Of a stretch of 64,000 nt of DNA, positions 23,237 through 25,687 are shown piece by piece; positions within the stretch are counted from its first letter, which is position 1, and each line of letters opens with the position of its first letter. The notes under the pieces were generated by a model. It searched no databases. It was not told the DNA's origin and was given only the letters and a program-made list of their open reading frames with translations. Location of the stretch: NCBI GenBank assembly GCA_019694145.1, contig JAIBCJ010000002.1, forward strand, positions 1-64,000. Reading direction: 5' to 3'. The position numbers and the translations under genes are program-made. The stretch comes from Solirubrobacterales bacterium. GTDB lineage: Bacteria; Actinomycetota; Thermoleophilia; Solirubrobacterales; 70-9.

Positions 23237-23242
23237 TAACCT
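23237..23242 (+). promoter_or_regulatory. Possible -10 box of the riboswitch operon
   Basis: TAACCT lies about 15 bases before the first stem of the SAM aptamer and would start transcription near 23249. No good -35 box is seen. Confidence 0.3.
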
Positions 23243-23257
23243 GTCGCCAGACATAAG

Positions 23258-23373
23258 CGCCACATCCAGAGGGGTGGAGGGACATGGCCCTACGAAACCC
23301 CGGCAACCAGCGGAAGCGAGAGCTTTCGAGAAGGTGCCAAATCCAGCGGCTCAAGTAGCCGGGAGATGTGGGG
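23258..23373 (+). promoter_or_regulatory. SAM-I (S-box) riboswitch aptamer
   Basis: The leader has the S-box core: AGAGGGGTGGAGGGACATGG, then CCCTACGAAACCCCGGCAACC, then AAGGTGCCAAATCC. It is closed by a P1 stem CCACATC (23260-23266) with GATGTGG (23365-23371). Known S-box RNAs bind S-adenosylmethionine and, when bound, favour a downstream terminator. Such a terminator follows at 23389. It controls the threonine-synthase-like gene and the coupled downstream genes. Confidence 0.9.
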
Positions 23374-23388
23374 AGAAGTCCGATCCGG

Positions 23389-23415
23389 CCTTCGCCCCAC
23401 GGGCGAAGGTTTTTT
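23389..23415 (+). terminator. Riboswitch-controlled intrinsic terminator
   Basis: The perfect 9-bp stem CCTTCGCCC/GGGCGAAGG with the loop CAC is followed by six T residues. It lies 18 bases after the SAM aptamer and 41 bases before the ATG of the PLP enzyme gene, the standard place for an S-box off-switch. Confidence 0.88.
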
Positions 23416-23455
23416 GTTTCCCCGGCAGGGGAAAGAACGAAAGGTAAGAGATCGG

Positions 23456-24688
23456 ATGGCAGTAAAGAACCTCAAATGCAAGGAATGTTCGACCGAGTAT
23501 GAGCTCGGTGCGAACTTCTTCTGCTCCGAATGTTTCGGGCCGCTGGAAGTCAAGTACGACTTCTCGGACCTGAACCCGGAAGAGACCCGAAGGAGGATCC
23601 AGGCGGGATCGCGCGGAATCTGGCGCTATTCGGACTTCCTGCCCTTCCAGGGCAAGGCCGGCGACCCGCTCGAGCCGGGCATGACTCCGCTGATCAAGGC
23701 GGACCGCCTCTCGGAGCGCCTGGGAACCGGGGCAGAGATCTTCATCAAGAACGATGCCGCCAACCCGACCCATTCCTTCAAGGACCGGGTCGTCGCCGTG
23801 GCGATCGCCAAGGCGAAGGAGCTCGGCTTCGAGACCGTCGCCTGCGCCTCGACCGGCAACCTGGCCAACGCGGTTGCGGCTCATGCCGCCGCGGCCGGAC
23901 TCGATTCCTATGTCTTTGTTCCGTCCAACCTGGAAGAGCAGAAGCTGCTGGCGACCGACATCTACGGCACCAACCTGGTCGGCGTCAAGGGCAACTACGA
24001 CGATGTGAACCGGCTCTGCACCCAGCTCGCGGACGAGAAGCCCTGGGCCTTCGTCAACGTGAACCTGCGCCCGTACTACGCCGAGGGCTCGAAGACCCTT
24101 GCCTACGAGACGGTCGAACAGCTCGGCTGGAACCTGCCCGACCGTGTGGTCGCTCCGATCGCGTCGGGTTCGCTTTTCACCAAGATCTCCCGCGGCTTCC
24201 AGGAGTGGAAGGAAGTCGGCCTGGTCGAAGGCAAACAGCCGGTCTTCCACGGCGCCCAGGCCGAGGGTTGTTCCCCGGTCGCCACGGCCTTTGCCGAAGG
24301 CACCCGGGTATGCCGTCCGCAGAAGCCGGACACGATCGCCAAGAGCCTCGCGATCGGTGACCCGGCCGACGGTCCCTACGCGGTCGCCCAGGCGAACGAA
24401 ACCGGCGGTTCGATCGATGCGGTTAGCGACGACGAGATCCGCGAGGGTATCCGCCTGCTGGCCGAGTCGACCGGCATCTTCACCGAGACTGCCGGCGGCG
24501 TCACGGTCGGCGTGCTGAAGAAACTGGCCGAGCGCGGTGAGCTGAAAGACGGCGAGAAGGTCGTCGTTTACATCACCGGTGAGGGACTGAAGACCCTCGA
24601 CGCCAATCGCGATAGCTTTGCGCTGACCGAGATCGATCCGAATCCGGACTCGTTCGAATCCCACTTCGGCCAGGAGGTCGTCGCCTGA
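23456..24688 (+). CDS. thrC: Threonine-synthase-like PLP enzyme
   Basis: The 410-residue protein is a fold-type II PLP enzyme of the threonine synthase family. Its expected reaction is O-phosphohomoserine to threonine. It has an N-terminal zinc-ribbon-like set C8, C11, C23, C26, the PLP-lysine K109 in NPTHSFKDR, the phosphate-binding CASTGNLANAVAAHAA and a C-terminal ETAGGVTVGVLKKL. ATG 23456 follows AAGG; the frame is open through the riboswitch but has no role there. Its stop overlaps the ATG of a ThiS-like protein. Control by a SAM riboswitch and coupling to a sulfur-carrier-like protein are odd for a plain threonine synthase. An alternative is a sulfhydrylase-like role in homocysteine or cysteine formation. 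Confidence 0.85.
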   Translation: MAVKNLKCKECSTEYELGANFFCSECFGPLEVKYDFSDLNPEETRRRIQAGSRGIWRYSDFLPFQGKAGDPLEPGMTPLIKADRLSERLGTGAEIFIKNDAANPTHSFKDRVVAVAIAKAKELGFETVACASTGNLANAVAAHAAAAGLDSYVFVPSNLEEQKLLATDIYGTNLVGVKGNYDDVNRLCTQLADEKPWAFVNVNLRPYYAEGSKTLAYETVEQLGWNLPDRVVAPIASGSLFTKISRGFQEWKEVGLVEGKQPVFHGAQAEGCSPVATAFAEGTRVCRPQKPDTIAKSLAIGDPADGPYAVAQANETGGSIDAVSDDEIREGIRLLAESTGIFTETAGGVTVGVLKKLAERGELKDGEKVVVYITGEGLKTLDANRDSFALTEIDPNPDSFESHFGQEVVA

Positions 24689-24963
24689 TGGCAGTCACAG
24701 TCAAGATTCCGACCCAGCTTCGCGCCACCACCGGAGGCCAGGCCGACCTGAGCGCCGAGGGTGCCACGGTGGGCGAGGTCCTCGAAGCGGTCTTCGCCGA
24801 GCACGGTGACCTCCGAGACCGGATCACCGAAGACGGCGAACTGCGCCGTTTCGTCAACGTCTACGTCGGCGGTGAAGACATCCGCTTCGGCGACGGGCTC
24901 GGCACCGCGGTTTCCGATGGTGCCGAAGTGACGATCCTTCCGGCCGTTGCCGGCGGCTGCTGA
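24688..24963 (+). CDS. ThiS/MoaD-type ubiquitin-like protein, GGC end
   Basis: The 91-residue beta-grasp protein begins AVTVKIPTQLRATTGGQ, carries LRRFVNVYVGGEDIRF and ends VTILPAVAGGC. Sulfur carriers of this fold are activated at a C-terminal Gly-Gly as a thiocarboxylate. Here a cysteine follows the pair, so trimming by a protease would be needed first, as is known for some carriers with residues after GG. It overlaps the PLP enzyme gene by one base (TGATG) and is under the same SAM riboswitch. No activating E1-like enzyme or JAMM protease gene is in this window. MoaD for molybdopterin is less likely given the neighbours. Confidence 0.8.
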   Translation: MAVTVKIPTQLRATTGGQADLSAEGATVGEVLEAVFAEHGDLRDRITEDGELRRFVNVYVGGEDIRFGDGLGTAVSDGAEVTILPAVAGGC

Positions 24964-25687
24964 AAACCTGAAGCCCCCGGTTCTGATCCTCAGCGGCGGC
25001 CGGGGCACGCGGCTGCGCGAGCAGACCGATTCCCTGCCCAAGCCGCTGGTCGAGGTCGGTGGCAAGCCGCTGATCTGGCATGTGATCCAGATTTACGCCC
25101 GGCAGGGATTCACCAGGTTCTTCCCGCTGACCGGTTACCTCGGCGAGCAGATCGAGGAGTTCGTCGAAGGCGAAGTCTGGCCGGAGGGCGTTTCCGTGAG
25201 TTGCCTGGAAACCGGGCTCGACACCCCGACCGGCGGTCGAATCGCCGCGGCAAGCGGTCAGGTCGAGGGAACCTTCTGTGCGACCTACGCCGACGGTGTC
25301 GCCGACCTCGACCTCGACGCACTTCTCGACTTTCACCGCTCCAGCGGCAGGGTGGCAACCATGACCGCGGTCCGGCCGGACCTGCAGTGGGGCGTGGCGG
25401 AAATCGATCCGGCCGGCGAGGTCACCGGCTTCATCGAGAAGCCGAGGTCCGAGCACTGGATCAACGGCGGCTTTTTCTGTTTCGAACCTGCCGTCTTCGA
25501 CTGGCTCGAGTCGGACTCGGTCCTCGAGCGCGAGCCGCTTGAGAACCTGGCCGCGGCAGGGCAGCTCGGTGCCTTCCGTCACGAAGGGTTCTGGGACTGC
25601 TGTGACACCTACAAGGACCTGGTCACCCTGAACGATCTCTGGGCTGGTGGCGAGGCACGCTGGCTCGGCTCGAAGGCAACCGCTTGA
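24947..25687 (+). CDS. Sugar-1-phosphate nucleotidyltransferase
   Basis: The 246-residue protein is a nucleotidyltransferase that activates sugar 1-phosphates. It has the pyrophosphorylase signature LSGGRGTRLREQTDSLPKPL (residues 15-34), then GGKPLIWHV, YADGVADLDL and the C-terminal HEGFWDCCDTYKDL. The last is very like the HEGFW-x-C-x-DT of glucose-1-phosphate cytidylyltransferase (RfbF). TTG 24947 overlaps the ThiS-like gene by 17 bases; the true start may be a little further in. With the next gene it forms a two-step NDP-sugar pathway, probably CDP-glucose to a 4-keto-6-deoxy sugar, for surface polysaccharide. Confidence 0.8.
   Translation: MPAAAENLKPPVLILSGGRGTRLREQTDSLPKPLVEVGGKPLIWHVIQIYARQGFTRFFPLTGYLGEQIEEFVEGEVWPEGVSVSCLETGLDTPTGGRIAAASGQVEGTFCATYADGVADLDLDALLDFHRSSGRVATMTAVRPDLQWGVAEIDPAGEVTGFIEKPRSEHWINGGFFCFEPAVFDWLESDSVLEREPLENLAAAGQLGAFRHEGFWDCCDTYKDLVTLNDLWAGGEARWLGSKATA

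Follow-up and report, generated by a model that had tools for sequence, protein, structure and literature searches.

A metM-metO operon behind a SAM-I riboswitch in a Solirubrobacterales bacterium, predicted to serve homocysteine synthesis

The window analysed here is a stretch of 64,000 nucleotides from a Solirubrobacterales bacterium (GenBank assembly GCA_019694145.1, contig JAIBCJ010000002.1, positions 1 to 64,000 of the forward strand). Within it, a SAM-I riboswitch and an intrinsic terminator precede two genes that we designate metM and metO (Table 1). An earlier note on this DNA had described a complete SAM-I aptamer and terminator ahead of a ThrC-family PLP enzyme, the stop codon of which overlaps the start of a ThiS/MoaD-like protein, and profile searches bear this description out. 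The aptamer match exceeds the RF00162 gathering score of 44.4 (E 4.3e-18), while the enzyme matches TIGR00260 at 294.5 bits, passing the thrC cut-off, and also matches PALP. A CxxC zinc-ribbon-like segment lies at the enzyme's N-terminus. The TGA of metM overlaps the ATG of metO at position 24688, and the best solved relatives of the carrier include M. tuberculosis CysO (3dwg, E 9e-24) and the ThiS/MoaD family protein 4n6e_B.

Table 1. Features of the metM-metO locus, in window positions.
Feature	Position	Strand	Basis or remark
SAM-I (S-box) riboswitch aptamer	23259..23372	+	RF00162, 83 bits, full model 1-108; fold
Aptamer P1	CCACATC 23260-23266 with GATGTGG 23365-23371	+	fold
Antiterminator 5' strand, GTGGGGAGAAG	23368..23378	+	overlaps P1 3' strand
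Intrinsic terminator	23389..23415	+	stem CCTTCGCCC / GGGCGAAGG, loop CAC, T6; G+C-rich hairpin
Antiterminator 3' strand, CTTCGCCCCAC	23390-23400	+	5' part of terminator
metM, ThrC-like fold-type-II PLP enzyme, 410 aa	23456..24688	+	TIGR00260, PALP, tree, alignment
metO, ThiS/MoaD/CysO-like sulfur carrier, 91 aa	24688..24963	+	PF02597, 59.6 bits

The 3' strand of P1 runs into GTGGGGAGAAG, which pairs with the 5' part of the terminator, so that P1 plus terminator on the one hand and the antiterminator on the other are mutually exclusive. The metMO leader is predicted to be a standard S-box OFF arrangement that responds to SAM. The computed energy of the GTGGGGAGAAG/CTTCGCCCCAC duplex is -16.6 to -18.4 kcal/mol. 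Because these leaders are rich in G+C, duplex energies are weakly separated from those of shuffled sequence (z mostly 0 to -3), and support for the antiterminator comes from its fixed position and from compensatory changes, not from the energy of the duplex. Most of the 23 relatives' leaders that were tested keep the register with compensatory changes on both strands, the paired variants including GTGGGG/CCCCAC, GTGAGT/GCTCAC, GCGAGT/GCTCGC and GTGAC/GTCAC; in a few distant leaders (L109, L110 and L119) the best duplex falls out of register. A simple search detected the terminator in 30 of 50 leaders.

The riboswitch accompanies the enzyme gene well beyond the window. Essentially all relatives that encode MetM have an RF00162 match immediately 5' of the gene, and such a match precedes metM in all 19 of the phylum-wide MetM loci scanned; the only scanned source without a match, L208, is the ThrC-like outlier. 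The same aptamer was found just 5' of the enzyme gene in each of the 12 named Streptomyces loci tested, where some 18 nt separate its end from the start codon, whereas in the window the terminator and antiterminator lie between aptamer and gene.

To place the enzyme, we compared it with threonine synthases and with homologues from across the phylum. It shares fold, PLP lysine, the core of the STGN loop and, by prediction, the substrate with canonical ThrC (T. thermophilus 1uim/1v7c and M. tuberculosis 2d1f), but its identity to such proteins is at most 45%. Against named Streptomyces homologues other than that of S. albulus it is 56% identical over about 406 aa (four compared); these homologues come from 80 loci, and are 91-98% identical to the Streptomyces protein of the phylum sample. 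Identity to the window enzyme has a bimodal distribution among about 300 genomes sampled across the phylum: full-length MetM proteins reach 51% or more, ThrC-like proteins no more than 45%. A similar gap is seen among 61 relatives, in which orthologues are 65-97% identical and canonical ThrCs about 37-44%. Phylogenetically, a split with 100/100 support divides canonical ThrC from MetM (tree of 70 rows), and the window enzyme falls among the MetM rows together with Streptomyces, MetM as one group receiving 86/75.

The alignment separates the two families residue by residue. In T. thermophilus ThrC numbering, all 50 MetM sequences differ from all 18 ThrCs by G58H, T88L, S155N, R160Y, Q164S and N188S, whereas MetM retains N87 and the PLP lysine, K61. 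The active-site set that is invariant in ThrC (T88, S155, R160, Q164 and N188) is wholly replaced in the window enzyme. We take the replaced positions to be in or near the substrate site; a literature search for the roles of these T. thermophilus residues returned nothing usable. As a separate observation, four loci (L160-L163, in genomes G025, G032, G027 and G034) encode a third, well-separated ThrC-like paralogue that is 42-44% identical to the window enzyme and has some MetM-like residues (R160Y and N157R), yet carries T88V and S155T.

Within the order, metO comes immediately after metM in 47 of 50 loci, their codons often overlapping or nearly so, and a GG-ended carrier follows the enzyme gene in all eight Streptomyces loci checked. 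The window MetO, which by its PF02597 and CysO matches belongs to the beta-grasp carriers, ends in AVAGGC, that is, in GG plus one extra Cys. The earlier note had called the carrier GGC-ended, but a GGC end as a family feature had to be rejected: 33 of the 47 order carriers end in GG, and GGC is sporadic. The other 14 carry one or two further residues (ends GGC, GGA, GGE, GGR, GGSR and GGQA), the last residue being C in six. In carriers of the ThiS/MoaD type, activation requires that any residue after GG be taken off first, and a JAMM protease is plausibly the obvious candidate for trimming the extra Cys of the window MetO. On its far side, metO is followed with almost no gap by a sugar-nucleotidyltransferase-like ORF (24947-25687, + strand), which may for that reason be co-transcribed and under SAM control.

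Further components of sulfur metabolism are spread over the genome to which the window belongs (2.55 Mb in 233 contigs, 81% complete). Another thrC, an E1-like MoeB gene and a JAMM protease gene, all suggested as search targets in the earlier note, are each present: a canonical thrC adjoins hom (homoserine dehydrogenase) on contig C176, which means that the genome has a thrC besides the window gene; the E1 gene, on C142, encodes an N-terminal rhodanese domain; and the JAMM protease gene adjoins cysO and cysM on C19 as a cysO-mec-cysM set. There is also a cysK beside a serine O-acetyltransferase-like gene, and moaD- and thiS-like carrier genes are found in loci of their own. With cysO, moaD and thiS each in its own locus, MetO is not needed for those roles. 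A full-length metH is encoded on C231. Contig C47 carries metY-metX (OAH sulfhydrylase at 644 bits, MetX at 508 bits), and no SAM riboswitch was detected on that contig. The earlier note had set against a sulfur role the combination of a complete separate sulfhydrylation pathway with the window gene as sole thrC; the separate MetX-MetY pathway exists, but the canonical thrC on C176 removes the other half of that combination, and the inference of a sulfur role stands.

The distribution of these genes was followed among relatives (61 genomes, the organism's own included, 43 of them at least 90% complete). MetM is encoded in 56 of the 61; all five genomes without it are less than 90% complete, and three of the five have MetX-MetY. 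All 43 genomes that are at least 90% complete encode MetM; 30 of them have no MetX and 22 encode no Cys/Met-metabolism PLP enzyme of full length, metH being present in 20 of the 22. The archaeal-type HcyBio route was found in none of the 61 relatives, and JAMM proteases occur in 53 of the 56 MetM genomes. The presence of MetM showed no significant association with that of MetX/MetY (Fisher test, p = 0.33). MetM is near universal, so it and MetX/MetY are not mutually exclusive, and the argument for MetM as a homocysteine route rests on the genomes without MetX/MetY. Since the organism's own genome encodes both MetX and MetY, MetM is predicted to be redundant there and not the sole predicted route to homocysteine.

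The nearest described system is that of Streptomyces. According to PMC12172450, Hasebe et al. 2024 (Appl Environ Microbiol 90:e01247-24, doi 10.1128/aem.01247-24) described MetM as a novel homocysteine synthase of Streptomyces with OPHS as its substrate; in S. albulus a SAM riboswitch lies 5' of metM, and the metO-like neighbour is annotated as a sulfur-carrier-family gene. The window locus resembles this system in its ThrC-like enzyme, adjacent carrier with GG near its end, upstream SAM-I riboswitch and place in a tree group separate from ThrC. It differs in that the organism belongs to another class of the phylum and also keeps MetX-MetY, and in the one extra C-terminal Cys of its carrier. 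Hasebe and colleagues reportedly found thiocarboxylated MetO to be the sulfur donor and partner of MetM in Streptomyces.

Two other carrier-dependent systems share parts of this design. In the HcyS-HcyD-HcyF-MetY system of Wolinella succinogenes, carrier-bound sulfur is converted to homocysteine by MetY, a fold-type-I enzyme that acts on O-acetylhomoserine, and the residue beyond the GG of HcyS is removed by a JAMM protease. Both the use of carrier-bound sulfur for homocysteine and the residue beyond GG recall the window pair, although the window enzyme is ThrC-like and its predicted substrate is O-phosphohomoserine. M. tuberculosis CysM uses O-phosphoserine and CysO (PMC12910592). The CysM-CysO-Mec system likewise couples a PLP enzyme to a CysO-like carrier, and a Mec-type JAMM protease and an E1 are also present in the window genome; however, the window enzyme belongs to the ThrC/MetM family with a predicted gamma-replacement on O-phosphohomoserine, and a true cysO-mec-cysM set lies elsewhere in the genome.

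Family grouping, the 56% identity with Streptomyces, the common riboswitch and the adjoining carrier together identify the window pair as MetM-MetO, and the recurrence of the aptamer-enzyme-carrier order across order and phylum excludes chance. On this comparative basis, the two genes very probably form a metM-metO operon that a SAM-I riboswitch would turn off at the level of transcription, with a predicted role in homocysteine synthesis. The system as such has already been published in Streptomyces, and the window pair is almost certainly its counterpart in another class. The suggestion in the earlier note that the enzyme might use a protein thiocarboxylate to make homocysteine gains support from this grouping, which is comparative evidence; its alternative product, cysteine, is not favoured.

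For this organism, we infer MetM activity, carrier trimming, product release and the SAM response along the following lines. In a first step, plausibly the work of the JAMM protease, MetO would lose the extra Cys after its GG; the MoeB/rhodanese E1 would then adenylate the C-terminal glycine and, with a sulfur source, convert it to the thiocarboxylate. MetM would draw O-phosphohomoserine from the threonine branch, and elimination of phosphate would leave a PLP-bound vinylglycine-type intermediate, to which the enzyme would add the thiocarboxylate sulfur of MetO at the gamma carbon. Homocysteine would then be freed from the carrier, plausibly again by the JAMM protease, and methylated by MetH. 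At high SAM, P1 would be stabilised, the terminator freed and metMO transcription stopped; at low SAM, the 3' strand of P1 would pair with the 5' arm of the terminator instead.

Other readings of the pair have to be weighed against this one. One would make it a second threonine synthase, or a bifunctional synthase/deaminase, with a carrier that only regulates the enzyme or serves another pathway, which appears highly improbable: the enzyme does pass the TIGR00260 thrC cut-off, and a cyanobacterial MetM-like ThrC, which has a metO-like gene next to it and shares 51.6% identity with S. albulus MetM, was reported to act as a threonine synthase and threonine deaminase (PMC12172450), but the canonical thrC already adjoins hom in the same genome, the ThrC-invariant residues are replaced in 50 of 50 MetM sequences, SAM control and the link to metO persist throughout the phylum, and 22 near-complete genomes with MetM have no other identified homocysteine route. 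Given the activity reported for the cyanobacterial homologue, placement by sequence is no guarantee of exclusive MetM activity.

We give just as little credence to an O-phosphohomoserine sulfhydrylase that works on free sulfide in vivo, with MetO as a bystander or in the service of molybdopterin or cysteine synthesis. Fold-type-II sulfhydrylases commonly use free sulfide, and further carriers are encoded in the genome (cysO, moaD and thiS), points that would suit such an enzyme; the position of metO directly after metM in 47 of 50 order loci and in the eight Streptomyces loci checked speaks against it, as does the partnership of MetO with MetM that is said to operate in Streptomyces. Least credible of all is the production of cysteine, and not homocysteine, by a CysM-CysO-like beta-replacement. 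The CysO-like proteins among the best solved relatives of the carrier would accord with it, but the genome's own cysO-mec-cysM and its cysK beside the serine O-acetyltransferase-like gene, the membership of the enzyme in the ThrC/MetM family and not in CysK/M, and a SAM control that fits methionine synthesis all point away from cysteine.

Homocysteine synthesis by MetM-MetO is therefore the reading that we prefer, and within it a more specific division of labour can be imagined, though we consider it unlikely: the genus might maintain MetX-MetY and the SAM-controlled MetM-MetO for different sulfur sources or SAM levels, with the extra Cys of MetO perhaps functional. The Cys may, for example, make activation of the carrier dependent on the JAMM protease.

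By these comparisons, what is annotated across the phylum as a second thrC is predicted to be a methionine gene, and MetM-MetO would fill a gap in the methionine pathway of many uncultivated actinobacteria, among them the 22 near-complete relatives. What is new is the recognition of the system, published for Streptomyces, in further classes with a SAM riboswitch nearly always conserved at metM, the existence of genomes with MetM as the only identified homocysteine route, and the occurrence of MetM alongside MetX-MetY in the window genus.

SAM riboswitches were also seen away from metM. Family mates have a second one directly 5' of metH (L134, L138, L141, L142 and L143), as expected of a methionine regulon. 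Further RF00162 matches in the genus and order, at 50-66 bits, precede small hypothetical genes and not metabolic genes (L002:652-751 on G000:C35, L126, L127, L130, L131, L132 with a tandem pair, L133, L135, L136, L137, L139 and L140). Among the proteins encoded 3' of these aptamers, six of those tested had no Pfam match and one has a cREC domain (PF20274). In these small-gene aptamers, the last P1 strand continues into a GGAGGT-like ribosome site.
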